Source: Pelagicoccus sp. SDUM812005
GTDB taxonomy: Bacteria > Verrucomicrobiota > Verrucomicrobiia > Opitutales > Opitutaceae
Length of the DNA: 64,000 nt
Direction of reading: 5' to 3'
Assembly (NCBI RefSeq): GCF_031127875.1
Contig: NZ_JARXIA010000009.1
Span: 62,001 to 126,000, forward strand
Shown: positions 32,544 through 53,250 of the stretch, in pieces
How the letters are laid out: each line of letters starts with the position of its first letter
How positions within the stretch are numbered: position 1 is the first letter of the stretch
Notes under the pieces: model-generated
What the model was told of the DNA's origin: nothing
Seen by the model: only the letters and a program-made list of their open reading frames with translations
Database searches by the model: none
Position numbers and translations under genes: made by a program

Positions 32544-32557
32544 ATTGTAGCGTATAG
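32544..32557. promoter_or_regulatory. Operator copy 1 (ATTGTAGCGTATAG), LacI/GH2 divergent region
   Basis: TTGTA-GCG-TATAG lies 11-24 bases before the LacI start and about 105 bases from the divergent GH2 start. It is one of eight sites sharing the core T(G)TA-GCG/CGC-TA. Its place next to the regulator fits autoregulation. Confidence 0.55.
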
Positions 32558-32567
32558 TAAATTCTGC

Positions 32568-33641
32568 ATGGCGGAGAAGCGAAACGAGGAGAAAGGCAAC
32601 GAGAAAACCCCTCGAAGAGTGGGTCAGCGAGAGGTCGCGAAAGAAGCGGGGGTCAGCTTAATGACGGTTTCCCTCGCGATGCGGAACAGTCCGTCCATCA
32701 GCGTGGCGACGCGTGAAAAGGTAAGGGAGGCTGCGGAGCGTGTCGGATACCGTCCCGATCCAGAGGTGGCTCGCTTGATGGGAAAGCTCCGCTCGTCGCG
32801 GGTGGCCAGCCGTAGCGTCGTGATCGCCTTGATCGACTTGCAGACGTCTGACCTGCAGCACAGCTACAACCTGCGCTTGAAGGAAGGCGTGGAGAAGCAT
32901 CTCGATCGTCTTGGTTATGGTTGCGCTTGCTTCAAGCTGAGAGACTACCGGGACGATGTATCCAAAATTGTACGTGTGATCAGGGAGCGGGGAATCATCG
33001 GCTGCATCCTGCTTCCGTCGGATCGGCCGATAACGTTTTCCTCCAAGGTCAACTGGGATGGGATTTCCGTAGTGGCGGCCACGACTTCGGTTTTGTCTCC
33101 GAGATTCCACAGGGTGGGCCCAAACCAAGTCTTCAATTCGATGCGGGTGGTCGAGGAGATGCAGTTGCGAGGCTACACTAATATTGGAGCCATTTTCAGC
33201 GAGAGCTTGGAGCGCAGGCAAAGGCACCGCTATTCGATTGCCTTGGCTTGGTATGGTCATCGAGACCGTATTCTATTGTTGCCGGACGATATCGACGACG
33301 CCCAGGAAGCCAAAATGATTCGAGATTGGGTGGCCACGCATCGGGTCGACGTGCTCTTCGTGCAGAACGCGTCGATGGTGATGCGCGCCTTGCAGGCTAG
33401 GAAGTTCGGTTCCGGCGCGAAGCAGGTCGGCTTAGTTTCCTTGGGGACGGTGGAAGACTCGAAGGTTTCCAGTTTGGACGAGCTCCCGGAGTTCGTCGGC
33501 GAGAGCGCGGTGAGCCTTCTCGTGGGAATGATGTTCAACAGCGAAACGGGGGTTCCCGCTACGCCTCGATCTACGGTGGTCGATGGCATTTTTCGAGAGG
33601 GGAAGACGGTGCGAGCCCTACGGCCGACCGGGGAAAAGTAG
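32568..33641 (+). CDS. LacI-family transcriptional regulator
   Basis: This 357-residue regulator has an N-terminal LacI helix-turn-helix (residues ~18-70: QREVAKEAGVSLMTVSLAMR, then VREAAERVGYRPDPEVARLM as the hinge-side helix). The periplasmic-binding-protein-like sensor domain fills the rest (VIALIDLQTSDLQHSY, IIGCILLPSD, NIGAIFSE, QVGLVSLGTV). Its ATG is only eleven bases after a candidate operator. It is divergent from the GH2 operon and upstream of two TonB receptors that carry the same site, so it is the best candidate for the regulator of the whole locus. Whether it represses or activates, and its sugar effector, are unknown. Confidence 0.93.
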   Translation: MAEKRNEEKGNEKTPRRVGQREVAKEAGVSLMTVSLAMRNSPSISVATREKVREAAERVGYRPDPEVARLMGKLRSSRVASRSVVIALIDLQTSDLQHSYNLRLKEGVEKHLDRLGYGCACFKLRDYRDDVSKIVRVIRERGIIGCILLPSDRPITFSSKVNWDGISVVAATTSVLSPRFHRVGPNQVFNSMRVVEEMQLRGYTNIGAIFSESLERRQRHRYSIALAWYGHRDRILLLPDDIDDAQEAKMIRDWVATHRVDVLFVQNASMVMRALQARKFGSGAKQVGLVSLGTVEDSKVSSLDELPEFVGESAVSLLVGMMFNSETGVPATPRSTVVDGIFREGKTVRALRPTGEK

Positions 33642-33700
33642 GCTGCGCCCGCTTTCGCTGCAGGAGCGTTCCTAGCGTCGCGGAGCTCTCTTGCGCGAGG

Positions 33701-33713
33701 TTGTACGCTAAAG
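33701..33713. promoter_or_regulatory. Operator copy 2 (TTGTACGCTAAAG) upstream of TonB receptor 1
   Basis: TTGTA-CGC-TAAAG ends 116 bases before the receptor start. The same thirteen bases occur at 37167-37179 at almost the same distance from receptor 2. A TATAAA at 33746-33751 downstream could be a -10 element. Confidence 0.55.
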
Positions 33714-33829: not shown

Positions 33830-36800
33830 ATGAACACTGTAGTACCCTTTACGTGCGAATTTACCCGCCTCGCAATTGTGGCCGGTTGTCTTGTATTCGT
33901 GAATACAAGTTTGTTTGCTCAGGAGGACAACGCTGAGGTTTTCGAGCTGTCTCCGTTTGTCGTTTCGACAGAAGAGGATGACGGCTTTGTCGCTGCCAAT
34001 TCCCTGGCGGGGGGACGGCTATCCAGTTCGCTCAAGGATACCCCTGCTGCCTACTCGGTGCAAACGCGCGAGTTTATCGATGCTCTCGACATCGTCGATC
34101 TTTCCGAGGCGTTGGAATGGACGGTAAACGCAACGAGCGTCGAAGAGGAAGGTCGCTTGGCTATCTTTGGAAATGGAGATCAGACGCTTTCGATTCGTGG
34201 AGTAACTTCTACTGGTAGGCAGCGGAACTTCTTCCCCCTCAACCTCCAGTTCGATAGTTACAACCTAGACCGCTTCGACTATGCGAGAGGACCCAACGCA
34301 ATCCTGTTTGGAGCCGGTTCCTTTTCAGGGACGCCGAATGTCGTAACGAAGCGGGCCATGCTTGCGGAGGACGCGGGGGAAGTGCAGTTCCGCATCGGCT
34401 CCGACAGTAACTACCGCAGCACCTTCGACTACAATAAGGTGATCAACGAGCGTTTTGCCGCTCGCGTGAACCTGCTTTGGCAGGATGCCGGGGGGTGGAG
34501 AACCTTCGAGTTCGACAAGCGAAAAGCGGCCACCCTCGCGACCACTTGGCAGATCTCCGAGAATACCACTCTTCTTTTGGAAGCGGAAGTGGGACACTTC
34601 GAAGAGAGCAGCCCCTTCACGTACTTTTCGGACGAGATTACCGGTTGGGACGGCAGCACCGTCTTCGACGAGTTGGTGACCAACGCCACCACGCCGGGCA
34701 CCAATGCGGCCCGGTCCGCGGGTGTTGTTCGCTCGGGAGGAGGCAACGACAGCAACCCCTTCCTGGTCTACGTTCCGGAGTTTGGCGGCAGCATTCTTGA
34801 CTACGCAAACACGATGACCACGGTCGGTGGAAATCGCTGGGTCCAAACCGGCATCGGTGGCACGGCAGTTCCGAGTGGAGCGCCAAGTATCCAACATCGC
34901 GACCGTCCCATCATCGGTATCGACAATCTCTATACAGGGCGTTTCGACGCAGCCGTTGCCGGATCGGAATTCACGGTTCCGGACGCTTCGTTCGCTCTCT
35001 CTACCGATGAGCCGACGGTAGAAAAGGATTACGAAACGTTTTCCGGATTTTTCCGCCAACGGTTCGGCCAGAATCTACACCTCGAGCTCGGCCTGAACGT
35101 GGCTGAGGAATCTCGGGAGACCAATTACCTCAACGCCCGTGATCTCGACGCGGTCTACATAGACATCAACCGGAAGCTCCCGACCGGCGAGGACCCTAGC
35201 GACCCCAACTTCTCCGGCGGAGTGGACAACCCGATGTTCCTGCAGCCCTACGGTCATGGACGCAGGTCCTGGGGAAGCTTCGGCACCGAGTACACCAGCG
35301 GCCGTATTGCTCTCGCTTATACAGTTCCCGAGGACCGCTTCGGTCGCTACGTGCTCAGCGTGATGGGGGGATACAGCGATTCGACGTTTCGCAAGAAGAT
35401 CTCTAGTTACCGTTTGCTCGATGCGGAGGATCCCAGGGATTGGGCGAGCGCGGAGAGCGTATGGTACCGCTACTACTGGAATGGCGGAAACTTCAGCCTG
35501 CCCGAAATCGATGAAGCGGTCATTGACGGAGAGACCTATCCGGTCGGTTGGGTAGCGGACGGAGACCGTCCACAAGACGTTTCGCTGGTTAATACTTCCT
35601 ACGACTACGCTCAGGCGGCGATCAACGCGAAGTTCTTCAAGGACCGCTTGAACCTCATCTTGGCCATTCGCTACGACGACCTTACCATCGCTCAGGACTA
35701 TAACCGAAACTACGAGGATTATCCTGAGGACTGGGATGGCAGCACCATCTTCTACCGCCAGCCCGCTCCCGCGAATTTCCTGGAACTTTCGGAGGAAGAG
35801 CAGTCGCAGTACAGCCCGCCCGCTATCAATCCCCAGGAGACGACTTACTCCCTCGGATCGGTTTATCACCTGACGAATAACTTCAGTGTCTTCGCGAACT
35901 ATGCGACTGGATACAATCCACCTGCGAGCGAAACGCGTCTCCGCTTGGACGGCACCATCATGCCGACGCCTGTTTCCAAGGGAACGGATATGGGAATTCG
36001 TTTCTCTTTCTTGAATAACAAGCTTCAGGGGAGCTTGTCCCGTTACGATGCCGAAGAGACGGCCCAACCGTTTGAGATCAATTTCCGCAACGAGCTGCAA
36101 CGCATCCATCGAGCCAACGTGGTAGGGGACCTTTCAGCGGAAGGGATCAACGCTCGCGGCTTCCCTCTCGTCCCGAACCAACCGTTCGACCAACGCGATA
36201 TGAGCGCGTCCGGTTACGAGTTCGAGGTCACCGCTAACGTGAACGAGCAATTGCGCCTTTCGGCGAACCTAGCTCTCTCCGACGCGAGCGCGGTGGATGC
36301 GTGGCAGGATACCTTGGCTTTCCTGGACCGGTGGACCGAAACCATGAAGCAAGTTGTTTGGGATTCGGGCGCGGTTTTCCAGTCCGATGGCCGAGCGGTT
36401 GAAGACGTTTCCATTCCGGTGGACCAACGTCCCGATGCGGACGAGGCTGCTAGCGCCTACAACCAGATTTTCTTCAATCGTCTGCCGAAGATAGGCACCG
36501 AGTTTGGGCGTGACCAGAAGCTAACGGGATTGACCGAAACGACTGGGAACCTCTTTGCCGATTACAGCTTTAGGGAAGGGCGGCTCAAGGGGTTCAAGAT
36601 CGGTATGGGCGCCAACTATCGAGGCAAGAAAGTGGTTGGGTTCCGTGGTTTGGATACAATCCAGGACCCGGCCTCGCCCAACGATCCGACAGCGGCTATC
36701 GACGACCCGAGCGTAGACGAATATACGCCCGTCTACGGCGAGCCCTACTGGTTGGCGACTCTCACGCTCGGGTACAAGTTGAAGCTGAAGGATGATCGCG

Positions 36801-36985
36801 GAGTACGCTTCCAGCTTCGCGTGAGTAACTTGTTCGACGAGGACCAGCCCATCGCGGGGACGCGGATTCACCTCTTGCCTCCCGATGGCGACTTCCTGAA
36901 CTCAGCCGCTCGGGTCTCCACCCCCACCCGTTTTCGTTGGCAGACTCCTCGCAGCTACACGTTCACGACAACCTATTCCTTCTAG
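33830..36985 (+). CDS. TonB-dependent receptor (paralogue 1)
   Basis: This is a 1051-residue outer-membrane receptor with a signal peptide (LAIVAGCLVFVNTSLFAQ). The mature N terminus EVFELSPFVVST is the segment typical of Opitutae receptors and precedes the plug domain (~55-190, with SLKDTPAAYSVQTREFID, TLSIRGVTSTGRQR and YDYARGPNAILFGAG-like residues). The 22-strand barrel follows, with GSVYHLTNNFSVFANYATGY and a C-terminal aromatic end TPRSYTFTTTYSF. It should import large oligosaccharides with TonB energy. No SusD partner is present, as usual in Verrucomicrobia. It is very similar to the next gene over its whole length. Confidence 0.95.
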   Translation: MNTVVPFTCEFTRLAIVAGCLVFVNTSLFAQEDNAEVFELSPFVVSTEEDDGFVAANSLAGGRLSSSLKDTPAAYSVQTREFIDALDIVDLSEALEWTVNATSVEEEGRLAIFGNGDQTLSIRGVTSTGRQRNFFPLNLQFDSYNLDRFDYARGPNAILFGAGSFSGTPNVVTKRAMLAEDAGEVQFRIGSDSNYRSTFDYNKVINERFAARVNLLWQDAGGWRTFEFDKRKAATLATTWQISENTTLLLEAEVGHFEESSPFTYFSDEITGWDGSTVFDELVTNATTPGTNAARSAGVVRSGGGNDSNPFLVYVPEFGGSILDYANTMTTVGGNRWVQTGIGGTAVPSGAPSIQHRDRPIIGIDNLYTGRFDAAVAGSEFTVPDASFALSTDEPTVEKDYETFSGFFRQRFGQNLHLELGLNVAEESRETNYLNARDLDAVYIDINRKLPTGEDPSDPNFSGGVDNPMFLQPYGHGRRSWGSFGTEYTSGRIALAYTVPEDRFGRYVLSVMGGYSDSTFRKKISSYRLLDAEDPRDWASAESVWYRYYWNGGNFSLPEIDEAVIDGETYPVGWVADGDRPQDVSLVNTSYDYAQAAINAKFFKDRLNLILAIRYDDLTIAQDYNRNYEDYPEDWDGSTIFYRQPAPANFLELSEEEQSQYSPPAINPQETTYSLGSVYHLTNNFSVFANYATGYNPPASETRLRLDGTIMPTPVSKGTDMGIRFSFLNNKLQGSLSRYDAEETAQPFEINFRNELQRIHRANVVGDLSAEGINARGFPLVPNQPFDQRDMSASGYEFEVTANVNEQLRLSANLALSDASAVDAWQDTLAFLDRWTETMKQVVWDSGAVFQSDGRAVEDVSIPVDQRPDADEAASAYNQIFFNRLPKIGTEFGRDQKLTGLTETTGNLFADYSFREGRLKGFKIGMGANYRGKKVVGFRGLDTIQDPASPNDPTAAIDDPSVDEYTPVYGEPYWLATLTLGYKLKLKDDRGVRFQLRVSNLFDEDQPIAGTRIHLLPPDGDFLNSAARVSTPTRFRWQTPRSYTFTTTYSF

Positions 36986-37299
36986 GGAGGGAGCCGCAGC
37001 TTTGAAATTCTTGGGCGCGAGCGTCGTGGCGCTGGCGCCCAAGCATATTCGCTTAGGGCAGTTCGTTGCCCGAAAGAATTAGGGCCGAAAAGGGGCGAAT
37101 CGCATCGCATTTGCGCCCATTAGTCGGTGGCAGACGGATTGCTTTGGGGGCGGAGCAGGGTTTTTATTGTACGCTAAAGCAGTCGCTCTCTTGAGCTCAA
37201 GGAGGGGACACGCAATTATCGGGTAAACTTCGGTCTTATGGATTGGATAAAGTTATGCGGTCGGCCGAACCACGCTCCTAATTACAAGCTATATATACA
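36986..37299. other. Intergenic region between the two TonB receptor genes
   Basis: This 314-base gap holds a long GC-rich stem (37010-37043, TTGGGCGC...GCGCCCAA, no T-run, so a weak terminator or mRNA stabiliser), an operator copy at 37167-37179, and a possible promoter just after it (TTGAGC at 37191, AATTAT 17 bases later). No gene seen. Confidence 0.55.
37167..37179. promoter_or_regulatory. Operator copy 3 (TTGTACGCTAAAG) upstream of TonB receptor 2
   Basis: It is identical over thirteen bases to the copy at 33701 and ends 120 bases before the second receptor start. The surrounding sequence is otherwise mostly different, so the site itself appears conserved. Confidence 0.6.
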
Positions 37300-40200
37300 A
37301 TGATACCCCTAAAATACCCAACCGGACGTCTCGTGATATTTGCGGGAAGTATTCTTTTTATGAATACAGAAATGTTCTCCCAGGAGAGCGATGAGGAGGT
37401 TTTCGAACTTTCGCCCTTTGTCGTTTCTACGGAAGACGACGACGGCTTTGTCGCCGTGAATTCGCTGGCCGGAGGAAGGCTTTCGAGTTCGTTGAAAGAC
37501 ACTCCTGCGGCCTATTCGGTCCAGACCCGCGAGTTTATCGATGCCCTGGACATCACCGATTTGGAAGAAGCGATCGAGTGGACGGTGAACGCGACGAGCG
37601 TGGAGGAGGAAGGCCGTCTGGCGATCTTCGGAAACGGCGACCAAACGCTTTCGATACGCGGCGTGACCTCCTCGGGTAGGCAACGTAACTTCTTTCCCCT
37701 CAGCATCCAGTTCGATAGCTACAACTTGGATCGTTACGACTACGCCCGCGGTCCCAACGCTATATTGTTCGGGGCGGGGTCGTTTTCGGGCACGCCTAAC
37801 GTGGTCACCAAGCGCGCCAGCCTCAGCGAGGATTTCGGGGAGGCTCAGTTTCGAATCGGCTCGTGGAACCTGCTTCGGACGACCTTCGATTACAATAAGG
37901 TGATCAACGAAAAGTTCGCCGCTCGGGTGAATCTACTGTGGCAAGATTCAGACGACTGGAGGAGCTTCGGCTTCGATCGCCGCAAGGCAGCGACCTTGGC
38001 CGCGACTTGGAAGATCTCGGAGAACACCTCTTTGTTGATGGAGGCCGAGCGCGGAGAGTTCGAACGGAATAGTCCGTTTTCCTATTTTTCGGACCGGTTT
38101 ACCGGCTGGGACGGTACCACCGTCTACGATGAGCTTGTTACGAACGCGACCGCTCCGGGCAACAGCGTATCCCGACCGGCTGGGGTCACTCGAGCCGGCG
38201 GCGGCAGCGACACCAACCCCTTTCTTGTATACGTTCCCCAGTTCGGCGGCGATATCCTAGACTACTCGAGTACCATGACCACTATGGGTGGAAACCGTCG
38301 CACGCAGACTATGATCGGCGGGGTCGCTGTCCCGAACGGGGCGCCCAATATCCAGCACCGCGACCGTCCCATTATCGGGATCGAAAATCTCTTCCCAGGA
38401 CGCTTCGACGCGGCAGTGGCCGGTTCGGAGTTCGAAGTGCCGGACGCCTCGGTCACGCTTTCCACGGACGAGCCCACCGTTTCCCAGGATTACGAAACGT
38501 ACTCCGCGTTCCTCCGTCACCGCGTCGGGCAGAACCTCCACTTCGAAGTGGGCCTCAATGCCGCTGAAGAAGCCCGTGAGACGAACTACCTCAACGCCCG
38601 CGACCTCGACGAAGTGTACATCGACATCAATCGGAAGCTTCCTACCGGCGAAGATCCCACGGATCCGAGCTTCTCGGGCGGCGTGGACAATCCAATGTTC
38701 TTGCAGCCCTACGGGCACGGGCGCCGCTCCTGGGGCAGTTTCGGAACGGAATACACCAGTGGCCGCGTCGCGATGGCTTACTCGGTGCCGGAGACGCGTT
38801 TCGGTCGCTATGTATTCAGCGTGATGGGCGGCTTCACCGATTCGAAGTTCCGCAAGAAGATTTCCAGCTACCGCTTGCTCGATTCCGAGGATCCGCGGGA
38901 CTGGGCCAGCGGCGAGCAAGTGTGGTACCGGTATTACTGGAACGGCGATAACTTCAGCCTGCCGGAAGTGAATCAAGCTATGGTGGATGGTGAGGCCATT
39001 CCAGTAGGTTGGGTGGCGGACGGAAGCCGTCCTCAGGATGTTTCGCGGGTGAACACGTCTTACAATTATGGGCAGGCCGCTCTCAACGCTAGGTTCTTCA
39101 AGGATCGGCTGAACGTCATCCTGGCGATGCGCTACGACGACCTGCAGATCTCCCAGGACTACAACCGGAACTACGAAGACTATCCGGCGAATTGGGACGG
39201 CAGCACCGTGTTCTATCGTGCGCCAGCCCCCGCAAACTACCTCGACCTCACGGAGGAGGAGCAAACTCAGTACAGTCCGCCGGCCATCAATCCGAAGGAG
39301 ACGACCTATTCCCTAGGATCGGTCTATCACGTGAACGATCGTTTCAGCGTGTTCGCCAACTACGCGACTGGATTCAACCCTCCTGCTAGCGAAACGCGAC
39401 TGCGCTTGAACGGTACGATTATGCCGACGCCCGTTTCGAAGGGCACCGATGTCGGGATCCGCTTCGCTTTCCTGGATAGCAAGCTGCAAGGCAGCCTGTC
39501 CCGCTACGACGCGGAAGAAACCGCTCAACCGTTTTCCATCAACTTCACCAACCACCTGCAGCGCTTGCACCGGGCCAACGTGGTGGGCGACCTATCGCCT
39601 GAAGGCGTCAACGCCCGCGGTTTCCCCTTGGTGCCGAACCAGCCCTTCGACCAGCGCGACATGAGCGCCTCCGGCTACGAGTTCGAGTTGGTGGCCAACG
39701 TTAGCGAGCAGTTGCGCGTATCGGCGAACCTGGCGCTCTCCGACGGCAGCGCCGTAGACGCCTGGCAGGACACGTTGGCGTTCCTCGACCAATGGACGGG
39801 CACCATCCGGCAAGTTGTAACCGATTCCGGCGCCTACTTCGACAGCGACGGCATGGCCCTTGTCGACGAGAGCATTCCGGAAGCGGAGCGTCCCGACGCC
39901 GACGAGGCAGCGACCTCCTACAATCAGATCTTCTTCAACAATTTGCCGAATATCGGAACGGAAGCGGGCCGCGAGCAGAAGTTGACTGGTTTGACCGAGA
40001 CCACAGGAAATGTATTCGCAGACTACACCTTCAGGGAAGGCGGCCTCAAGGGATTCAAAATTGGCCTGGGCGCAAACTACCGAGGCAAGAAGGTGCTCGG
40101 GTTCCGCGCTTTGGATACGATCCAGGACCCCGACGCGCCGGGAGATCCAACCGCGGCTATCGATGACCCCAACGCGGATGAATATACACCAGCTTACGGA

Positions 40201-40446
40201 GAGCCGTACTGGCTCGCGACCATGACGCTGGCTTACAAGAGGAAGATCAGCGATGACTTGGACGTACGCTTCCAGTTGCGAGTGAGCAACCTGTTCGACG
40301 AGGACCAGGTCGTGGAGGGCACGCGACTCCATCGCCTCCCGCCCGATGGTGACTTTTTGAATACAGCGGCCCGCGTATCGACGGCGACTCGTTTCCGCTG
40401 GCAAACGCCGCGCAGCTATACCTTCAGCACGACGTTCTCTTTCTAG
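37300..40446 (+). CDS. TonB-dependent receptor (paralogue 2)
   Basis: This 1048-residue outer-membrane receptor is a tandem paralogue of the preceding gene and alignable over its whole length with few gaps. Signal peptide: LVIFAGSILFMNTEMFSQ. It has the same mature start EVFELSPFVVST, the same plug segments (SLKDTPAAYSVQTREFID, TLSIRGVTSSGRQR) and the same barrel end (TPRSYTFSTTFSF). Differences cluster in the signal peptide and in barrel loops such as WNLLRTTFDY versus DSNYRSTFDY. Both have their own operator. The duplicate may widen the range of glycan fragments imported; this is inference. Confidence 0.95.
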   Translation: MIPLKYPTGRLVIFAGSILFMNTEMFSQESDEEVFELSPFVVSTEDDDGFVAVNSLAGGRLSSSLKDTPAAYSVQTREFIDALDITDLEEAIEWTVNATSVEEEGRLAIFGNGDQTLSIRGVTSSGRQRNFFPLSIQFDSYNLDRYDYARGPNAILFGAGSFSGTPNVVTKRASLSEDFGEAQFRIGSWNLLRTTFDYNKVINEKFAARVNLLWQDSDDWRSFGFDRRKAATLAATWKISENTSLLMEAERGEFERNSPFSYFSDRFTGWDGTTVYDELVTNATAPGNSVSRPAGVTRAGGGSDTNPFLVYVPQFGGDILDYSSTMTTMGGNRRTQTMIGGVAVPNGAPNIQHRDRPIIGIENLFPGRFDAAVAGSEFEVPDASVTLSTDEPTVSQDYETYSAFLRHRVGQNLHFEVGLNAAEEARETNYLNARDLDEVYIDINRKLPTGEDPTDPSFSGGVDNPMFLQPYGHGRRSWGSFGTEYTSGRVAMAYSVPETRFGRYVFSVMGGFTDSKFRKKISSYRLLDSEDPRDWASGEQVWYRYYWNGDNFSLPEVNQAMVDGEAIPVGWVADGSRPQDVSRVNTSYNYGQAALNARFFKDRLNVILAMRYDDLQISQDYNRNYEDYPANWDGSTVFYRAPAPANYLDLTEEEQTQYSPPAINPKETTYSLGSVYHVNDRFSVFANYATGFNPPASETRLRLNGTIMPTPVSKGTDVGIRFAFLDSKLQGSLSRYDAEETAQPFSINFTNHLQRLHRANVVGDLSPEGVNARGFPLVPNQPFDQRDMSASGYEFELVANVSEQLRVSANLALSDGSAVDAWQDTLAFLDQWTGTIRQVVTDSGAYFDSDGMALVDESIPEAERPDADEAATSYNQIFFNNLPNIGTEAGREQKLTGLTETTGNVFADYTFREGGLKGFKIGLGANYRGKKVLGFRALDTIQDPDAPGDPTAAIDDPNADEYTPAYGEPYWLATMTLAYKRKISDDLDVRFQLRVSNLFDEDQVVEGTRLHRLPPDGDFLNTAARVSTATRFRWQTPRSYTFSTTFSF

Positions 40447-41104: not shown

Positions 41105-42340
41105 CTAACGCTGCGCTTTTATGAGCTCGGCGGCTGCGAGCAGCAGGGGGCCGGAGCCGTGAAGGTCTGGAGTCGTGGTTTTTCGATTGAGGTAGTGGAA
41201 CACGTCGTCGTGGATTCCAGTGCCTTCGCAGCACTTGAGAAGCGTGCCTTCCGCCGTGACTTGGGAGGCTAGGCCATCCCAGGCGTGCTCGGCGATTTGA
41301 AGGTAGTCGCGGTGGATAAGCTCTTCGTTGACCGCGTAGGCGATAGCGTAGGTGAACATGGCTGTGCCGGATGTTTCCTCGAAGGAATCGGGGCGATCTA
41401 GAAGCTGGTGCCAAAGCCCGCTGGCGGCCTGGTAGTTGGAGAGGCCGATGATCTGTTGGCGCAGGCTGGAGACGACCCAGTCCCGTTGCGGGTGGTCGAC
41501 GGGCAGGTACTTGAGGATTTCGACCTTGGCCATGGCGATCCAGCCGTTGGCCCTGCTCCAGTGGGCGAAGGAGCGGATGCCTTCGTCGGCGTAGTAGCCG
41601 TGGTGATACACTTGTCGGGAATCGTTCCAGAGCAGCTGATGGTACTGGTGAAGTTGGCGTAGGGCCTCGTCGAGGTAGCGCGTGTCACCTGTCTGTTCGG
41701 CGCGGCGTACCAGGAAGGGAGCGCTCATGTAGACGTGGTCGGCCCAGACGGAACGGTCGCGGGGGAACTCCACGTAGAATGCCCCGTCTTCGAGTCGGTG
41801 CTCGTAGTTGAGGATGAAGTCGCCGACTGTCTCGAAATAGGGGGCGTACTCGGGGCGCTTCTTGAGCTTGGAGGCTTCGAAGATTGCGGTGGCCATCGCT
41901 CCGCAGTCGTCGAGCTTTTGCGTGCGGAAGTACCGTTGGTGTTCCACCCAAGGCCGACCCTCGCCGTAGTGGTTTTTGAATACAGCGATGCTTTTGAAGG
42001 TTTCGTCGAAATAGTGGGTCGCAAAGTCTTGGTAACGGTCATCCTCGGTCGCCTCGCTGAGGGAAAGCATGCCGAGCAGCAGGACTCCGTTGCCGTAGTG
42101 CCACACGTTGTAGGGCGAACGTACTCGGAAGTCGGTATTCACCAGCTCGTCGCTCGCAGCTTCGAAACGCTCGCCGGTCTTGCGGTTGTGGAAGTCGAAG
42201 GTGGTTTGCTCGATGAGGTGATTGGCGACTCGCTGAGCGATGGCTTCCGGGCTCTTCTCGGAGCTCTCGGCTGGGGCGGCGCTTAGGAAGGCGAGCGTTA
42301 GTAGGGGGGTGGCTAGCGAAGCGGTGGGGAGTATTCTCAT
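41105..42340 (-). CDS. GH105-like unsaturated uronyl hydrolase (secreted)
   Basis: This 411-residue (alpha/alpha)6 enzyme has a signal peptide (MRILPTASLATPLLTLAFLS, cleavage near PA-ES). GH88/GH105 features are LDDCGAMATAIFEA with the catalytic aspartate, ADHVYMSAPFLVRRAEQTGD, FAHWSRANGWIAMAKVEIL and SGTAMFTYAIAYAVNE. The family removes unsaturated uronic acids left by polysaccharide lyases (rhamnogalacturonan or ulvan fragments). Export to the periplasm distinguishes it from the usual cytoplasmic YteR type. It lies 52 bases after a sulfatase in a minus-strand operon whose promoter carries two operator copies. Confidence 0.9.
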   Translation of the reverse strand: MRILPTASLATPLLTLAFLSAAPAESSEKSPEAIAQRVANHLIEQTTFDFHNRKTGERFEAASDELVNTDFRVRSPYNVWHYGNGVLLLGMLSLSEATEDDRYQDFATHYFDETFKSIAVFKNHYGEGRPWVEHQRYFRTQKLDDCGAMATAIFEASKLKKRPEYAPYFETVGDFILNYEHRLEDGAFYVEFPRDRSVWADHVYMSAPFLVRRAEQTGDTRYLDEALRQLHQYHQLLWNDSRQVYHHGYYADEGIRSFAHWSRANGWIAMAKVEILKYLPVDHPQRDWVVSSLRQQIIGLSNYQAASGLWHQLLDRPDSFEETSGTAMFTYAIAYAVNEELIHRDYLQIAEHAWDGLASQVTAEGTLLKCCEGTGIHDDVFHYLNRKTTTPDLHGSGPLLLAAAELIKAQR

Positions 42341-44029: not shown

Positions 44030-44042
44030 GTTTAGCGTATCA
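44030..44042. promoter_or_regulatory. Operator copy 4 (GTTTAGCGTATCA), divergent sulfatase region
   Basis: TTTA-GCG-TATCA lies 105 bases upstream of the minus-strand sulfatase start at 43925, the same spacing as for the receptors. Confidence 0.5.
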
Positions 44043-44133: not shown

Positions 44134-44147
44134 TTTTACGCTACAAA
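44134..44147. promoter_or_regulatory. Operator copy 5 (TTTTACGCTACAAA), divergent sulfatase region
   Basis: TTTTA-CGC-TACAAA lies 125 bases upstream of the plus-strand sulfatase start at 44272. With copy 4 it gives one site per promoter in this divergent region. Confidence 0.55.
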
Positions 44148-44271: not shown

Positions 44272-45705
44272 ATGCACCCTTTCCCCAAACGAATTCTGAA
44301 TATATCAGTCGCTGCTCTGGCGTTTGCTCTCGGCGCCGGGTCCAGCCTCGCTGCGACTCGAGACAAGCCGAATGTAATCTTGATCTTGGTCGACGATCTT
44401 GGCTACGGCGATCTCGGTTCCTACGGGCAAAAGAAGATCAAGACGCCCCACCTCGACAAGCTCGGCTCGGAAGGCACCCGCTTCACCAGCGCCTATGCAG
44501 GAGCGACGGTTTGCGCTCCTTCGCGAGGGTCGCTGATGACGGGGCTGCATACCGGCCATGCGAGGATACGAGGCAATTCGCGCACGGTCACGCCGGGGAT
44601 CTTCTTGGCGGACGAAGATGTGACGATTGCGGAGGTGTTGAAGAGCGCCGGCTACCGCACGGCGATGATCGGCAAGTGGGGACTGGGGCAAGTAGGGGAG
44701 CGGGCCGCTGGCCTGCCTCGCCGCCAAGGCTTCTATTACTCCTTCGGCTACCTGAACCAAAGCCATGCTCATAACTCCTATCCCAGCCACATGTGGCGCA
44801 ACGAGTCCAAGATCCATTTTCCGAATACGGTGCCCGACGAGAACGAGTTGGGGATGGGCGTGTCGGACAATAAGGAAGTCTTTTCCCAAGACGTTTTCAT
44901 GGAGGAAGTGCTCGGCTTCCTCGACGAGCAGCAGGGAAGCGAGGATCCCTTCTTCCTTTATTTCGCCCCCACGCTGCCGCACGCCAACAACGAGTCGCGC
45001 CCCTTCGGCCTGGAGATTCCCGACTACGGGGACTACATCGACAAGGAGTGGACGGAGGCCCACAAGGCCTACGCGGCTATGGTTGGCCGCATCGACAGCG
45101 ACGTGGGCAAGATAATGCAGCGCCTGGAGGCTTTGGAGATCGATCAGAACACCCTGGTTATCTTCACCTCCGACAACGGTCCGCACCAAGAGCGCGGGGC
45201 GGATCCCGAGTTTTTCCAGTCCTCCGGTCCCTTCAAGGGCATCAAGCGCGACCTCTACGAAGGCGGTATCCGCGTGCCCATGATCGTGCATTGGCCCGCC
45301 CAAGTGCCCGCTGGCCGCGTGGACGATACGCCTTGGTACTTTCCGGACGTGTTGCCTACGCTGGCCGCGATCGCCGGCGTGGAAGCGCCAGAGGGGATCG
45401 ACGGAGTGGACGTAAGCCCGTTGCTCTTGGGCGCTCGCCAAGCGGAGCTAGAGGAACGCCTGCTCTACTGGGAGTTCCACGAGCGAAACAAACCGCAGGC
45501 GGCTCGCCGCGGGGATTGGAAGGCGGTGCGCTGCTGCGGTTCCGGTCGGGTGGAGCTCTACTTCTTGCCTAACGATCCCGGCGAAACCAACGACCTCGCT
45601 CCGCTTTATCGTGAGCTGCAGACTCAGTTTAGCCGCGACATGCTCGAAGCCCGTACCGTGAGTCCCTATTGGCCGTATCCATTGGATGGCGAAACCAAGC
45701 AGTAA
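44272..45705 (+). CDS. S1-family sulfatase (secreted)
   Basis: This is a 477-residue sulfatase. An in-frame ATG at 44215 exists, but MHPFPKRILNISVAALAFAL begins a clean signal peptide (cleavage near SLA-AT), so 44272 is preferred. The formylglycine motif is C81-A-P-S-R, then GSLMTGLHTGHARIRG. Further motifs are NVILILVDDLGYGDLGSYG, MIGKWGLGQVG and VIFTSDNGPHQERG. This is the arylsulfatase-A-like S1 type frequent in marine glycan loci. It is transcribed alone, divergent from the sulfatase/GH105 operon. The three sulfatases of the locus are clearly different from one another, so they probably act at different sulfate positions (inference). Confidence 0.93.
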   Translation: MHPFPKRILNISVAALAFALGAGSSLAATRDKPNVILILVDDLGYGDLGSYGQKKIKTPHLDKLGSEGTRFTSAYAGATVCAPSRGSLMTGLHTGHARIRGNSRTVTPGIFLADEDVTIAEVLKSAGYRTAMIGKWGLGQVGERAAGLPRRQGFYYSFGYLNQSHAHNSYPSHMWRNESKIHFPNTVPDENELGMGVSDNKEVFSQDVFMEEVLGFLDEQQGSEDPFFLYFAPTLPHANNESRPFGLEIPDYGDYIDKEWTEAHKAYAAMVGRIDSDVGKIMQRLEALEIDQNTLVIFTSDNGPHQERGADPEFFQSSGPFKGIKRDLYEGGIRVPMIVHWPAQVPAGRVDDTPWYFPDVLPTLAAIAGVEAPEGIDGVDVSPLLLGARQAELEERLLYWEFHERNKPQAARRGDWKAVRCCGSGRVELYFLPNDPGETNDLAPLYRELQTQFSRDMLEARTVSPYWPYPLDGETKQ

Positions 45706-46372: not shown

Positions 46373-46458
46373 TTAGTTCTGCATATCTTCGAGGTGATGT
46401 GCACTGGCTTAGTGTGGAGTGGTGACCGCATTTGTATCGATCGGCTGGTTCGATGTTA

Positions 46459-47626: not shown

Positions 47627-49111
47627 CTACAATCGGTCCGACTCGAGGGGGGCGTTGCGGAAGGCGCGTTCTTCTTCAGGGGTGCCGAGGGTTTCGGCGG
47701 GGTAGATTTTGGGCTGCACCGCTTCGCCGTTGATGCGGACGTTTTCGAAGGTGATGCCCTCGGCGAGGGCGAGGAACTGGGGGACTTGCTTGGCTTGGCC
47801 GATGGTCACGTTGCGTAAGGTGATATTGGATACGAGTGCCTGAGGTTTGCCGACCGCGTAGATGCCGAACTTTTCCGCGATGTTGCAGCTGACGTCTTCG
47901 ATGACGAAATCGGAGTATTGGGAGGGGAAGTTGTTGCCGCGCCAGCCGGGGTAGTCGGTGAGGAAGTCGATGAAGTTGGTGCGGGCGGTGCCGACTTGGA
48001 TGTTGCGCACGCGCACGCCGCGGATGTAGCCGCCGCGGTCGGGATTGGACTTGAAGTAGATGCAGGAGCGGGCGCTGCCGATGCGGCAGTTTTCCATGAA
48101 GATGGATCGCACGCCGCCGGACATTTCGCTGCCGACGGCGAGGGCGTTGTGCACGTCGGGCATCTCGCAGTTGCGGATGACGATGCGCTCGGTGGGACGT
48201 CCCACGTTCCAGCCGTCTTGGTCGCGGCCGGCTTTGATGGCCACGGAGTCGTCGCCGGTAAGGAAGGTGCAGTCCTCGATGAGCACGTTGCGGGAGGAGT
48301 CGGGGTCGACCCCGTCATTGTTCTGGTGGTAGCTATTGACGGTGACCCCGCGCAGGGTCACGTCCGAGCAGAAGACTGGGTGGATACACCAGAAGGGGGA
48401 GTTGGTGACGGTGACATCTTCGACGAGCACTCGCTCGCAGCCGAAGAATTGGATGAAGGGAGGGCGGAGAAAGTCGCCTTCGCCGAAGACGCGCTGGTGA
48501 ACGGGCACGAGGTCGTTGCCCATTTGGCGGAGTCGCAATTGGGCGGCTTGCTGCTGGGGGCGCCAGGTGGCGAAGCCATCGGCTGCGTTGCCGTTGATCG
48601 TTCCGGAGCCGGTGATGGCCACGTCGGTGGCTTGGAAGGCGTAGATGAGGGGGGAGTAGTTGTAGCAGAGGCTGCCTTCCCAGCGAGTGAGCACGGCGGG
48701 CAGGTAGTCAGCGGGATCTTCGCTGAAGACGATTTCGGCCCCTGCTTCCAGATGGAGCTCGATGTGGCTTTTGAGGTGGATGGGGCCCTTGAGGTACCAC
48801 TTGCCTTCGGGGAAGATCAATTTCCCCCCGCCTTGCCGCACGGCGTCGGCGAGGGCGGCCTTGACCGCGGGCAGGGAATCGAAGTCGAGACGTGCTTGGG
48901 CGCCGTATTCGACTATGGAATACAGGCGGGAGGGAATTTCAGGAGCTTGGATCGAATCGACGATCTCGGTAGCGACGTCCCAGGTGAGCTCTGCTTCGGC
49001 GCTCGGATCGCTTTTCGTATTCGAATCGGAACGGCAGCTGCTTGTCGCGGCAAGCAGGACCATCAGGACAGTTAGGTTCCAGAAGCGATTTTGGGAGAAC
49101 AATTGATACAT
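47627..49111 (-). CDS. GH28 polygalacturonase-like lipoprotein
   Basis: This is a 494-residue right-handed beta-helix enzyme. I use the ATG at 49111, which has AAAGGA six bases upstream; a longer frame starts at 49138. The N terminus ends in a lipobox-like LAATSSC, so it is probably a lipoprotein. GH28 motifs are NNDGVDPDSSRNVLIEDC (the NxD aspartate), LTGDDSVAIKAG (the DD pair), LAVGSEMSGG and CIYFKSNPDRGG. The family hydrolyses galacturonan or related rhamnogalacturonan and can act in exo mode. It is divergent from the alpha-galactosidase gene with two operator copies between them. Exact linkage specificity is not clear. Confidence 0.9.
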   Translation of the reverse strand: MYQLFSQNRFWNLTVLMVLLAATSSCRSDSNTKSDPSAEAELTWDVATEIVDSIQAPEIPSRLYSIVEYGAQARLDFDSLPAVKAALADAVRQGGGKLIFPEGKWYLKGPIHLKSHIELHLEAGAEIVFSEDPADYLPAVLTRWEGSLCYNYSPLIYAFQATDVAITGSGTINGNAADGFATWRPQQQAAQLRLRQMGNDLVPVHQRVFGEGDFLRPPFIQFFGCERVLVEDVTVTNSPFWCIHPVFCSDVTLRGVTVNSYHQNNDGVDPDSSRNVLIEDCTFLTGDDSVAIKAGRDQDGWNVGRPTERIVIRNCEMPDVHNALAVGSEMSGGVRSIFMENCRIGSARSCIYFKSNPDRGGYIRGVRVRNIQVGTARTNFIDFLTDYPGWRGNNFPSQYSDFVIEDVSCNIAEKFGIYAVGKPQALVSNITLRNVTIGQAKQVPQFLALAEGITFENVRINGEAVQPKIYPAETLGTPEEERAFRNAPLESDRL

Positions 49112-49249
49112 GAAATTCCTTTGCTGGGTTTGTTGCATTTTGTAGGTGCGCCGTTTCGAGGCGGCAAGCGTTTGGGGCGTTGGCGCTGCGGCGCCTCGCT
49201 CAACGATTAGAAGATTGGGAGTTTGGGGAAGCTTGCTAGCGTGCGGGAG

Positions 49250-49262
49250 CTTTAGCGTAAGG
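49250..49262. promoter_or_regulatory. Operator copy 6 (CTTTAGCGTAAGG), GH28 side
   Basis: TTTA-GCG-TAAGG lies 138 bases upstream of the GH28 start, in the divergent region shared with the alpha-galactosidase. Confidence 0.55.
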
Positions 49263-49298: not shown

Positions 49299-49312
49299 CT
49301 TTACGCTAAAAT
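49299..49312. promoter_or_regulatory. Operator copy 7 (CTTTACGCTAAAAT), alpha-galactosidase side
   Basis: TTTA-CGC-TAAAA lies about 52 bases before the alpha-galactosidase start. It is the inverse of copy 6, so the pair forms a widely spaced inverted arrangement (centres 49 bases apart). Confidence 0.6.
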
Positions 49313-49363: not shown

Positions 49364-51253
49364 ATGAAGTACCTTATTATTTTGATCGGTTCGTGGCTCT
49401 TGGGAGCGACGGTTCTTGGAGCAGAGACCCTGGCGCTGCCGGAAGTCCGTATTCACACCCTGGATGCGGTGCCTGGACTTGTGGCGGAGTCGCGCTTCGA
49501 AACGACTCCAGGCGGCGGGAGAACCTTAAGGGTGGTCCTGCGCAACGAGGGCAGCGAGGCTGTGCGTTTGGACTCGGTAGAAACGCGTTTCGGCTGGGGT
49601 GGCCCGCCTTCCTCCGAAACCTTGGTGGCCACGGGAGGCACGACTCAGTTTCGGCATCCGACTCGCGTCACGGAGGCGGCTCACTGGCCAGCCACCTCCG
49701 CTTCCTTCCTATTGCGCAAGGACGGTGGCAGGCACCTAGTGGCGGGCCTCTTGGGCTGGAGGACGTTCTATACGGAGCTGACCTTCGATGCCGGCGAGGT
49801 GAGGGTGAAGACCTTTGGCGAGCAGAAGCGGATCCAGCCGGGAAGCTCGGTCACTTTGGAGTCGATATGGCTGGCGGAAAGCCAGTCCTGGGAGGGCTTG
49901 CTGTACCGCTATGGCGACCAGATCGCGGCGGCGAATAATGTGAACCTGCCGGAGAAGGAGCAGATCGTGGGCTGGGCCAATTGGGACTACTACGGCAAGC
50001 ATTTCAGCGGCGAGTCGATCATGGAAAACGCTCGGGAGCTTGCGAAGATGGAGCTAGGCGGAAGCTTGGTGCAGATCGACGATGGCTGGCGCGAGCATTC
50101 GGGCGACTTTGGCGACGAGGAAGTGCGTATCGGAGATTTGGATGCGATCGTGGACGAGATCAACGCCTCTGGGATGAGGGCCGGTATCCACGTGGACTCG
50201 ACGCGAGCGGATCCACGCTCGAAGATTGCTCGCAAGCATCCGGAGTATTTCTTGCATTTGGAGGACGGAAGCCTGCTGGTGGGCGAGCGTTCCAACGGTC
50301 GGGTGGGGCATGTCTATTTCGACTACACCCATCCGGGAGCTCGGGCTCACATGGCGGCTAATATTCGTTGGCTGCGGGAGAAGGGCTTCGAGTACTTCAA
50401 GCTCGATTTCATGCGATTCGCGGCGGAGGTGAATATCCTTTCGCGGGCCGAGCTGCCAGCCGATACGCGCATCGTGCGGCATGACGACAGCATGACGCTC
50501 TTTGAAGGATTCAACCTCATGATGCTGGCCTTTCGGGAGGCGATGGGCGAGGAATCGTTTTTCCTCGGTTGCTCGGCGGAGTTTGGCGTGACTTACGGGC
50601 ACGTGGATGGCTTGCGCTCGGGCGGCGATATCGACCCGACCTTCAGCCGCTACCAGCGCTCCACTATGGAGAATGGCGGCATGTTCTTTTTGAACGGTCG
50701 TGTGGTTTGGTCCGATGCGGACTACCTGGTGGTACGCAACAAGTTCGACGAGGACGAGGATCGGGTCGACAGTTATCGAAAATCCGGATGGGAAAACTCC
50801 TGGTCGATGTCGCGTATGTGGGCCCACTATGTGGGGCTCTTTGGCGGGCCGATTATTTCCGGAGACAAGCTGCCGACGTTGCGGGAAGAGCGTCGCGAGC
50901 TGCTACGCGAAGCCATTGAGTTGCCTAAGTGCGAACGCTTCTATCCGGTCGACTTCTGGCAACGCGGCCGCGATCGCGACGACTCCTATCATGCGTTTTT
51001 GGGAGAAGCGAACGATGGGGTTTATCTGGCCTTCTTCAATTGGGGAACGACGACCCGTGAATATCGCATAGAAGGGCTTCCGGCTGGTGCGAAGCTGAGT
51101 GTCTTGGCGGGTGAAGGTATCCTGACGGCGGATACAAAGGTCGGTGCCTTGACGGTACCCTACTTTCATTCGACGATTTTGAAGGTAACTGGCAGCAGCT
51201 TCGACGAGCTACGCCGGACGCTCGCGGTTACGTATCCAGAACGTGGGTTGTAG
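49364..51253 (+). CDS. GH36-like alpha-galactosidase (secreted)
   Basis: This 629-residue enzyme has a signal peptide (MKYLIILIGSWLLGATVLGA). The N-terminal beta-sandwich (~22-190) is followed by a TIM barrel with clan GH-D motifs: VGWANWDYYGKHFSGESI, GSLVQIDDGWREHSGDFG, MRAGIHVDSTRADPRS, and YFKLDFMRF, in which Asp348 is the likely nucleophile. RSGGDIDP (Asp422 or Asp424) carries the likely acid/base. A C-terminal beta domain follows (FFNWGTTTREYRIEGLPAGA). The overall pattern is GH36-like/melibiase, but it is distant from classical members, so alpha-galactosidase is the likely and not the only possible activity. It is divergent from GH28 and should act outside the cytoplasm. Confidence 0.85.
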   Translation: MKYLIILIGSWLLGATVLGAETLALPEVRIHTLDAVPGLVAESRFETTPGGGRTLRVVLRNEGSEAVRLDSVETRFGWGGPPSSETLVATGGTTQFRHPTRVTEAAHWPATSASFLLRKDGGRHLVAGLLGWRTFYTELTFDAGEVRVKTFGEQKRIQPGSSVTLESIWLAESQSWEGLLYRYGDQIAAANNVNLPEKEQIVGWANWDYYGKHFSGESIMENARELAKMELGGSLVQIDDGWREHSGDFGDEEVRIGDLDAIVDEINASGMRAGIHVDSTRADPRSKIARKHPEYFLHLEDGSLLVGERSNGRVGHVYFDYTHPGARAHMAANIRWLREKGFEYFKLDFMRFAAEVNILSRAELPADTRIVRHDDSMTLFEGFNLMMLAFREAMGEESFFLGCSAEFGVTYGHVDGLRSGGDIDPTFSRYQRSTMENGGMFFLNGRVVWSDADYLVVRNKFDEDEDRVDSYRKSGWENSWSMSRMWAHYVGLFGGPIISGDKLPTLREERRELLREAIELPKCERFYPVDFWQRGRDRDDSYHAFLGEANDGVYLAFFNWGTTTREYRIEGLPAGAKLSVLAGEGILTADTKVGALTVPYFHSTILKVTGSSFDELRRTLAVTYPERGL

Positions 51254-51413
51254 TTCGCGGGTGTCGTCTCGGCGTGGCGGCAAACAGTCTTCGCATGGGA
51301 CTACGACCGTCGTCGCGCCAGCCCTACCTTGCTGCGAACCCTGCTGGCTTAAAAGAGCGCGTCTTCCGCAAGGCTCTTTGGGAGATACTATAAGGGACTC
51401 GGCTGACAGCACT

Positions 51414-52934
51414 CTAGCGGGTGCCGGTTATGATGTCGTTTAGGTATTCTTCGATGTTGAGGTAACCGTCGCCATCGTCGTCCTTTAGGGGATCGCTGCC
51501 GTATTCTGTTTCCAGTGTATCCGGAATGCCATCACGGTCGGCGTCGATGGCCGAGGGGAGACCGTAGCTGGCGTAGTCGGGGAGCTTGGGGTCGCCGTCG
51601 GAATCGATGTCGGCCGCGGCCTTAGGGCCGACCGGGTTGAGCCATTTTCCTGGCTGGGATTTTGGTGGCAGGTAGACGACGTCGATAAGGGAACCTTGGC
51701 GGTTGGATATGTCGTTCATCAAGCGGGCGTCGATAGCGTCGCGGGAAGGCCAGCGGGCTCCTACTTCGTCGAGCAGGAAGTCCAGCTCGTTGAGCTGGGA
51801 GGAGAGTTTCGTTATTTCGTTCATCCCGATCCCGGCGAAGGCGGGTTCTGATGTGAAGGCTTCGGATTTGATCTTAGCGTTGGTGAAACCGGCTTCGATC
51901 ACGTCCTGGTGGGGCAGGAGCTCGTAGCCGCTAAACGATGCAGCGTTGCCGCGTAGGAAGATTTTGCTGCCCGAGCTGGAGTCGATTCCGTTGAAGCGGA
52001 CCAGCCGATCCTTGTGGGTGGTCGTGTCCGGGCCTCCTAGCCAGTAGTTAGCTATAACATGGGCTTTGAGCGGGTGCGTTCCCACTTTTATGGAACCGGA
52101 GAGCTGTCCGCCAGCGTTGCCGAAGTTGTAGATATAGTTGTTTATCAGTTCGCTTTGGTCCGTTTGCTTGAGGAAGGGGTTGCGGTATTCGTGATGGGCG
52201 ATGAGGTTGCGGTAGAGAGTAACGTTGCGAGTCCATGGACCGATAACCATGCCCATGCCGTGCTTGGCGTTGTGGTACTCGACTGGAGCTGTCTCATCTT
52301 CGTGGATACTGTCTCGCAGCGAGGATTCGATGATATTGTACTGGAAAGTCACGTTCTGGCAGGCCCGGTAGGCGCTGGCGGTTTCGTCGGTTCCCCAACT
52401 GAAGGAGCAGTGGTCGATAATGATGTCTCTGAGGCTGGGGTCGCTTTCCGCGAGCTCGCCGACTTTGATGGCATCCCGATTGCGGGGCGCGGTGTTGACG
52501 CTGTAGTGCAAGTCGCTCGGTCGCACGCGCAGTCCGCGGACGATGATGTCGTGGGCGCCGTCGCGAATTTCTAGTCCTTCGCCGCGAATGCAGATGCCGC
52601 CTAAGGGAGCGGTTTGGCCGGCGATGGTGATGAAAGGGCTGTCGATGACTAAGGGTCTGCTTTCTTGCAGCGTAATGACTCCGCCGATACGAAATACAAT
52701 GAAGCGACCTCGCTTGCCTTTGACGCTGTCGATGGCGTGCCGGAGGGTACCGGGGCTATCGTCGTCGGCGAGGCTGTCGACGATATAGACTTCGGGCTTC
52801 GTCCCGCCGCGTGCCCCTTGGGCGTATTTGCCGAAACCGGCGGCCCCGGGGAAGGCGGGCAACGGATCCGCTGCCGATGCTACGGCGAGTGAGCAGCTTG
52901 CAAGAGTGGATAGGAAGTAAGCGAAGGATTTCAT
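51414..52934 (-). CDS. PL1-type pectate lyase-like protein with calcium-repeat tail
   Basis: This 506-residue secreted beta-helix protein has a signal peptide (MKSFAYFLSTLASCSLAVAS, cleavage near SAA-DP). The PL1-like segments are FPGAAGFGKYAQGARGG, IVDSLADDDSPGTLRHAI, IVFRIGGVITLQESRPLVID, IIIDHCSFSWGTDETASAY and VTLYRNLIAHHEYRNP. The last ~70 residues hold thrombospondin-type-3-like calcium loops (DIDSDGDPKLPD, DADRDGIPDTLE, DDDGDGYLNIEE). Lyase action on a uronic-acid polymer would create the unsaturated ends that the GH105 enzyme removes. An operator copy lies at 53122-53134, about 190 bases upstream. Confidence 0.87.
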   Translation of the reverse strand: MKSFAYFLSTLASCSLAVASAADPLPAFPGAAGFGKYAQGARGGTKPEVYIVDSLADDDSPGTLRHAIDSVKGKRGRFIVFRIGGVITLQESRPLVIDSPFITIAGQTAPLGGICIRGEGLEIRDGAHDIIVRGLRVRPSDLHYSVNTAPRNRDAIKVGELAESDPSLRDIIIDHCSFSWGTDETASAYRACQNVTFQYNIIESSLRDSIHEDETAPVEYHNAKHGMGMVIGPWTRNVTLYRNLIAHHEYRNPFLKQTDQSELINNYIYNFGNAGGQLSGSIKVGTHPLKAHVIANYWLGGPDTTTHKDRLVRFNGIDSSSGSKIFLRGNAASFSGYELLPHQDVIEAGFTNAKIKSEAFTSEPAFAGIGMNEITKLSSQLNELDFLLDEVGARWPSRDAIDARLMNDISNRQGSLIDVVYLPPKSQPGKWLNPVGPKAAADIDSDGDPKLPDYASYGLPSAIDADRDGIPDTLETEYGSDPLKDDDGDGYLNIEEYLNDIITGTR

Positions 52935-53250
52935 TGGTTTAAGGGTACGAGGGCAAAGGATTTGTAGGAGCTGCTCTTCCGGGGGGAGGGGCGCTGGCTA
53001 GGACGGTCTTTTTCGCGGTCGCGTTTGGCTGCTTTCACATGGCGAGTAGAGGCATTTGGTTTTTTGTTGGCGAGCAGCCGAATGCTTCGGGTCGGGAGGG
53101 CGCGTTGCCAATCTTAAGCGTCTATAGCGTAAAGTGGCGGCGGCTGGCGAAAGCAGGTAGGGCCGCGCTGGCTTCGCGCCGCCTGTCAGGCGCGAGGACT
53201 CCTGCGTTCTTACGCGGCTTCCCGTCGATACGCGTGTTTTCACGCGGGGC
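52935..53250. other. Intergenic region upstream of the lyase
   Basis: About 315 bases with the operator copy at 53122 and GC-rich words such as GTAGGGCCGCGCTGG near 53158 that resemble the scattered repeats at 40.6-41.0 kb. No gene seen. Confidence 0.45.
53122..53134. promoter_or_regulatory. Operator copy 8 (CTATAGCGTAAAG) upstream of the PL1-type lyase
   Basis: TATA-GCG-TAAAG lies about 188 bases before the lyase start, the farthest of the eight sites from its gene. Nothing else between it and the tRNA repeats looks like a gene. Confidence 0.45.

Follow-up and report, generated by a model that had tools for sequence, protein, structure and literature searches.

Eight copies of an 11-bp word with an odd centre occur in the control regions of a glycan locus of Pelagicoccus sp. 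SDUM812005, within a window of 64,000 nucleotides (positions 62001-126000 of contig C118, in a draft genome of 6.65 Mb and 118 contigs), and, judged from the sequence, they very probably serve as operators of the LacI-family protein encoded among them at 32568-33641. The predicted regulon would put a single switch in control of TonB-dependent receptors, sulfatases and enzymes of pectin type. It represents a further case of the known local type of LacI regulon, and what is new is the class of odd operators, apparently linked to the hinge of the regulator, to which its sites belong.

Eight odd palindromes in the control regions of one locus

All eight words are intergenic and contain TAGCGTA when read in one orientation. 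They take the form of an 11-bp odd palindrome, TNTA-GCG-TANA, and thus differ from the usual even LacI operator, which carries a central CG pair on the dyad. The first, TGTAGCGTATA (32546..32556, plus strand), lies between the divergent lacI gene and GH2 operon, at 11 bp from the ATG of the former and 106 bp from the start of the latter. The word TTTAGCGTACA occurs twice on the minus strand, at 33702..33712 and 37168..37178, respectively 117 bp 5' of TonB receptor 1 and 121 bp 5' of TonB receptor 2. Two sites occupy the next control region, TTTAGCGTATC (44031..44041, plus strand), the weakest among the eight, 105 bp 5' of the sulfatase-GH105 operon, and TGTAGCGTAAA (44135..44145, minus strand), 126 bp 5' of a sulfatase gene of the plus strand. 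Similarly, TTTAGCGTAAG (49251..49261, plus strand) stands 112 bp 5' of the GH28 gene and TTTAGCGTAAA (49300..49310, minus strand) 53 bp 5' of the melibiase-like gene, while TATAGCGTAAA (53123..53133, plus strand) precedes by 188 bp the gene for a beta-helix, pectate lyase-like protein. All eight sites are backed by word match and matrix score; distances are counted between the start codon and the near edge of the 11-mer.

A 15-column matrix built from the eight sites and scanned along the window returns them as its eight highest scores, 18.3-22.3 bits, the next position reaching 12.8 bits; the leave-one-out scores of the sites range from 12.7 to 20.5 bits. The window contains 11 copies of the heptamer TAGCGTA, and the three outside the operators (13537, 18994 and 41344) all fall inside open reading frames (ORFs). 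Intergenic DNA (24 stretches, 7495 bases) has eight copies, 300 order-2 simulations giving a mean of 0.7 and a maximum of 4. Over the whole genome, the pattern TNTAGCGTANA gives 13 exact matches, versus 22 for the reversed control pattern. Seven of them belong to the window, namely six operators (44031 and 49251 do not fit the pattern) and the coding word at 13535, another lies at C118:142125, and the five found elsewhere are all within open frames of 354-940 codons. The excess in intergenic DNA is hence both real and local. The 14 bases in common between the two receptor sites constitute the longest word shared by both 200-bp upstream regions, a length reached by 0/500 mononucleotide shuffles, and these regions align at 117/189 ungapped positions.

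Two figures weigh against so simple a picture. On the unbiased, leave-one-out score the site at 44031 does not surpass the word inside the ORF at 13535, with 12.7 versus 12.8 bits, and the total of 11 copies of TAGCGTA in the window, for a mean of 4.0, is not decisive because 200 order-3 simulations reach a maximum of 11. Two additional candidates were discarded. The word at 13535 was rejected as a ninth operator, since it scores 12.8 bits and falls within an esterase ORF (12806-13672), 127 bp from the edge, and C118:142125, which adjoins a kinase ORF, was not accepted as a further operator.

An earlier note on this DNA had listed the eight words, all of which are present where it placed them, and had called for the matrix scan, which ranks them on top. 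Its literal consensus word fits some of the sites, the outer halves deviating at 32546 (TATA), 44031 (TATC), 49251 (TAAG) and 53123 (left TATA). The absence of copies outside promoters, noted by eye, holds for the high-scoring sites, all intergenic, and fails for the TAGCGTA core with its three copies in ORFs, only that at 13535 scoring as high as 12.8 bits. The distance of about 118 bp and the 13 shared bases attributed to both receptor sites came near to the measured values, given above.

The LacI-family regulator and the conservation of its probable sites

The protein encoded at 32568..33641 on the plus strand possesses a LacI-type helix-turn-helix (HTH; PF00356, 56.6 bits, cut-off 27) with the recognition residues L17, M18 and L22 in LacI numbering. 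Its hinge, GYRPDPEVARLM, in which R69 precedes L70 and in which L70 and M71 are invariant in the protein and eight relatives, carries by its sequence a leucine of the intercalating type, and is one residue longer than that of CcpA in a phmmer alignment. Residues 90-315 give weak phmmer matches to the ribose-binding protein (E 0.006-0.009). The genome contains 39 LacI domain hits, and among the 31 with a readable HTH the Leu17-Met18 (LM) pair is found in the window protein only. The eight others were not read by the helix pattern; with a looser one, a single member of this group, L347, shows a plausible helix (RTTVS). According to the part of PMC4052901 considered here, 1251 of 1303 LacI motifs are even, 1173 with a central CG, and 4% are odd; since odd motifs are on record, the odd operator does not remove the protein from the LacI/GalR family.

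The core of the operator recurs with orthologous genes in two other genera. In genome G104, TATAGCGTATT precedes the LacI orthologue (48% identity), at 20 bp from where the protein match begins and 65 bp from the HTH, and the core also lies 135 bp, counted from the heptamer, before the likely ATG of a TonB receptor near lacI, 49% identical to receptor 1. In genome G263, a receptor near lacI, 35% identical to receptor 1, is preceded by TTTAGCGTATA at 117 bp from its likely ATG. Moreover, TAGCGTA occurs upstream of more distant LacI proteins with the LM helix, in G011 and G177 (31-32% identical to the window LacI) and in G243. In the final set of 271 HTHs, the 150 bp preceding the HTH contain the word for 5/16 LM proteins, the window included, versus 1/255 others (Fisher 2e-6, or 3e-5 after removal of the window protein), and the five bearers are distributed over three separate supported branches, window plus G104, G011 plus G177, and G243. 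The LacI-centred glycan regulon formerly proposed is thus supported, both by the recurrence of the core with orthologous LacI proteins and TonB receptors and by the only readable LM helix of the genome.

Some observations speak against this assignment. The LacI of G263, a 41% orthologue, displays no core in the 400 bp before its HTH, a word with one mismatch occurring at 321 bp, and it belongs to the 11/16 LM proteins devoid of TAGCGTA near their own gene. The protein L180, with an LM pair and Leu22, has the variant TTTATGATAAA upstream; another variant, TTAGAGTAA, precedes the LM protein L068. In addition, Pfam at 1e-3 detects the HTH alone in the window LacI, with no effector domain, and the operator at lacI lies a mere 11 bp 5' of its ATG.

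From the palindromes and their placement we infer binding and repression along the following lines. A LacI dimer would read the two TTTA-like arms of an odd palindrome 11 bp long, of the form T(K)TA-GCG-TA(M)A; the TA-GCG-TA core would correspond to Leu17-Met18 and the outer T/A to Leu22. As long as the glycan signal is lacking, the protein probably occupies the promoters and represses its own gene together with all targets, i.e., the two TonB receptors, the GH2-symporter-sulfatase and sulfatase-GH105 operons, the second sulfatase and the GH28, melibiase-like and pectate lyase-like genes, and a breakdown product of the glycan would release it. Sites both at the regulator's own gene and at neighbouring catabolic operons, as a local LacI glycan regulon should have, are present here. 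In this respect, the locus resembles the local LacI regulons covered by the consulted part of PMC4052901, in which glycan genes preceded by palindromic operators adjoin the gene of an HTH protein that probably regulates itself, but its operator differs by being 11 bp long and odd, with no CG pair on the dyad.

The LacI protein might also bind these sites and chiefly activate, or play a mixed role, a reading we regard as unlikely. It takes its strength from the geometry, the site lying 105-126 bp from the start, and hence possibly upstream of the promoter, for 6/9 target starts (exceptions are the melibiase-like gene with 53 bp, the beta-helix gene with 188 bp and lacI with 11 bp). However, distance does not decide between activator and repressor because, in the motifs treated in the same portion of PMC4052901, more than 75% of LacI sites are located 140-30 bp before the start. 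A weak sigma-70-like match at 32521-32548 overlaps the lacI site (1 found versus 0.4 expected) and also weighs against an activator. Most LacI-family regulators of sugar genes are repressors, which counts in the same direction.

It is decidedly improbable that the neighbouring LacI is incidental and that the sites belong to another regulator, be it one of the LacI paralogues or a protein of two-component type like those encoded at 55437-58809. The large number of LacI hits in the genome, eight of which were not read with confidence, and the response-regulator and kinase domains found in the window provide candidates for such a role. They are opposed by the presence of the core ahead of a lacI orthologue and of distant LM-helix LacI proteins in other genera, by the lack of the LM pair in any other readable paralogue of the genome, and by the arms of the palindrome, which obey the code of LacI proteins for residue 22 and Met18 seen in the present counts and in the consulted part of PMC2978694. 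Finally, chance or duplication, i.e., tandem-duplicate receptors plus coincidental heptamers elsewhere, hardly deserves credit, for although the receptors are 80% identical, seven other heptamers besides AAAAAAA also occur 8-9 times in the intergenic DNA of the window and at least one of the 200 simulations reaches 11 copies of TAGCGTA, the eight top matrix scores fall at the promoters of one gene set with flanks differing by eye, the intergenic count is far above its simulated mean, and sites accompany orthologues in other genera.

Words with the same core were also observed around LacI proteins with an Ile-Met pair, L084 and L082 from genomes G145 and G150, which have TTTATCGTAAA or TTTATAGTAAA upstream. 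At 4-19 kb from these lacI genes, TAGCGTA words lie between or beside glycan-type and other genes, encoding a protein with a glycoside hydrolase catalytic core, GH30, GH16, a TSP3-repeat protein and a 2-hydroxyacid dehydrogenase; further copies fall inside ORFs.

Centre length and hinge among Met18 regulators

The odd centre, pointed out earlier as unlike the even centre of most LacI motifs, is indeed at variance with the literature figures quoted above, and is no speciality of the locus: the upstream sequences examined indicate that it is common among Met18 LacI proteins of this bacterial group. An initial set of 157 HTHs, from the same family (f1) and from further families of its order, was retained out of 167 after dropping those with a failed helix pattern, less than 150 bp upstream or identical last 50 upstream bases; it grew to 179, 235 and finally 271. 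L072, a distant match from the genome contigs, was excluded from all counts, and one false HTH, an internal stretch of L068, remained in the non-Met class. In the 200 bp upstream, words of the type TTA-Nk-TAA peak at k=3, with 40/157 proteins against 0-11 at other values of k, 1/156 in the coding control and about 4 in mononucleotide shuffles. They are concentrated in the Met18 class, with 38/82 versus 2/75 for the others in the initial set and 43/132 versus 3/139 in the final one (Fisher 3e-12). Other gene starts of the fetched loci show TTA-N3-TAA in 7/138 cases, five of which (L036 twice, L038, L090 twice) come from DNA surrounding a Met18 lacI and could be shared or target sites of that lacI. 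The non-Met class displays some excess of palindromes with the even gaps 4 and 6.

Depending on residue 22, the outer bases of the gap-3 and gap-4 words of Met18 proteins vary: G..C goes with Arg in 22/26, T..A with Leu in 33/39 and with Tyr in 6/6. Perfect palindromes upstream of the 76 Met18 proteins with an Asp/LM-type hinge number 32 odd ones with five-base arms, versus 12.6 after shuffling, and 17 even ones, versus 13.4; because they favour the odd form only moderately, the claim of an odd centre is carried by the TTA-based counts.

The length of the centre goes along with the hinge, in data from this phylum in which most rows come from one family. Met18 proteins with an Asp/LM-type hinge have TTA-N3-TAA in 38/76 cases, with four more that show TAGCGTA alone, and TTA-N4-TAA in 0/76, whereas those with an Asn hinge have TTA-N4-TAA in 21/32 and TTA-N3-TAA in 0/32. 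Gaps 3 and 4 occur in 2/14 and 5/14 proteins with Asp devoid of LM, and in 3/10 and 2/10 with an unread or other hinge. The 18 Asn-type proteins fetched later keep the pattern (gap 4 in 15/18, gap 3 in 0/18), having been obtained with Asn-type queries and including many close relatives of L009. Asn50 or Asp50 alone was rejected as the determinant of spacing, since gap 4 also goes with those Asp hinges that are of the ALxxYR type. The two classes are completely separated by the residue preceding the hinge leucine, being K/R/E/H/Q/G in 46/46 gap-3 and A/T/V/S/C in 26/26 gap-4 Met18 proteins, or 35 versus 15 at 75% redundancy. These 72 proteins have Met18, a readable hinge and exactly one gap, TAGCGTA also counting as gap 3 for Leu17 proteins; the residue is read in the profile column, and in the hinge column the row of L068 is shifted and shows I. 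The window LacI, with R69 before L70 and TAGCGTA sites, has the features of the odd class and is itself counted as gap 3.

We tentatively propose that the residue preceding the intercalating leucine could set the length of the centre throughout the phylum, a polar residue or glycine going with odd 11-bp operators and other small residues with even 12-bp ones, so that, together with residues 17, 18 and 22, the operator would be largely readable from the protein. In mechanistic terms, the odd centre would follow the hinge, a polar residue (once Gly) before the leucine giving three central bases and a small one (Ala, Thr) four, among Met18 proteins of the phylum. In one case outside the phylum, that of GntR of E. 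coli (Met18, hinge GYIPNRA), gntK is preceded by two gap-4 words, GTTACGGGTAAC and GTTATCGGTAAC; GntR resembles the present proteins by Met18 and the TTA...TAA half-sites and differs by its gap of 4 and its Asn hinge.

Several points tell against the proposed rule. A share of 54/126 Met18 proteins with a readable hinge was set aside for showing neither or both gaps. The rule is post hoc, the column being the best of 18 + 58 overlapping ones and the residue classes drawn afterwards. A tree of 60 proteins requires only four changes of gap (3-5 over the bootstrap), a single one of which is imposed by strongly supported branches. Lastly, a gap-3 word, TTAGTTTAA, occurs 32 bp before gntR in E. coli.

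Ancestry alone, old LacI lineages differing in both hinge and operator length, is therefore a live rival, and we judge it about equally likely to be right or wrong. The few switches of the gap on the tree and the several protein columns associated with it plead for ancestry. It is countered by the split of all 72 proteins on one residue class, by Asp hinges with Ala before the leucine, which have gap 4 in 5/5 classified representatives while one with Gly has gap 3, and by the intermixing of gap-3 and gap-4 rows in a region of the tree where resolution is poor. Among natural operators, lac O1 of E. coli offers a parallel, being odd with an asymmetric centre that contains GCG like the window sites; it is one base longer than the symmetric even form and the window sites are one base shorter.

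With respect to published codes, the consulted part of PMC2978694 describes residues 17, 18 and 22 in the TVSR group with 14-bp palindromes, Met18 going with TT and Arg22 with an outer G. The association of Met18 with a TT half-site and of Arg22 with the outer G is found again here, but Leu predominates at residue 22, and the centre, shorter by one base, varies in length with the hinge. The string 'verrucomicrobi' occurs 0 times in the main texts of PMC4052901 and PMC2978694, and open-licence PMC text yielded neither a paper on LacI operators in this phylum nor a rule linking the LacI hinge to centre length. LacI proteins are textbook repressors and common tools of synthetic biology, and a determinant of half-site spacing is absent from the published code found. 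A lineage in which centre length tracks the hinge provides natural pairs of proteins for testing spacing, and the rule would help to predict regulons in little-studied polysaccharide degraders with dozens of LacI proteins per genome.

Other conserved words were noticed in the same data. Six proteins with Ala-Met and Arg22 from different families of the phylum (L146, L160, L185, L199, L222 and L268) have GTTATGATAAC upstream in common. A paralogue of the window genome (Pro-Met, Tyr22) and two proteins of the same genus (L096, L204 and L209) have HTHs that are near-identical and, some 60 bp upstream of them, the conserved word TTTACCGTAAAT, a probable separate regulon to judge from these words. 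Genome G012, of the same family, gave 182 first-look LacI candidates in 7.4 Mb, 36 of them scored, more than its relatives, and possibly reflects a large LacI expansion.

Predicted target genes and neighbouring features

The GH2 gene (30688..32439, minus strand, by Pfam) is the first of a likely operon which, by gene spacing, also comprises an SSF symporter (28934-30712) and a sulfatase (27550-28911). The TonB-dependent receptors 1 (33830..36985) and 2 (37300..40446), both on the plus strand, are 80% identical, the former matching PF00593 and PF07715. On the minus strand follow a GH88/GH105-type unsaturated glycuronyl hydrolase (41105..42340; PF07470, 247.8 bits) and a sulfatase (42393..43925; PF00884), and on the plus strand another sulfatase (44272..45705; PF00884), the ATGs at 43925 and 44272 being chosen by signal peptide. 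A GH28 enzyme (47627..49138, minus strand; PF00295, 77.4 bits) is followed by a melibiase-like glycosidase, an alpha-galactosidase or related enzyme (49364..51253, plus strand; PF02065, 36.8 bits, cut-off 27), which scores 25.4 bits against the NCBIfam beta-L-arabinopyranosidase model (cut-off 1100). The beta-helix, pectate lyase-like protein (51414..52934, minus strand) matches Pfam Beta_helix below cut-off and NCBIfam PelZ with 122.4 bits (cut-off 840). All the genes named earlier are thus present, the labels alpha-galactosidase and pectate lyase being weak.

Within the locus, 45706-47626 and 52935-54186 contain no recognised gene, the four ORFs tested there being without Pfam match. Two genes with response-regulator or histidine-kinase domains adjoin the locus at 55437-58809, and another receiver-kinase ORF occurs near 142.1 kb of C118. 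On the other side, a 2599-aa protein (16817-24616) associates CBM9, fn3 and putative Ig domains with a weak dockerin match, and its gene is preceded at 16734 by the word TATAGCATAAA, with a matrix score of 11.3 bits.

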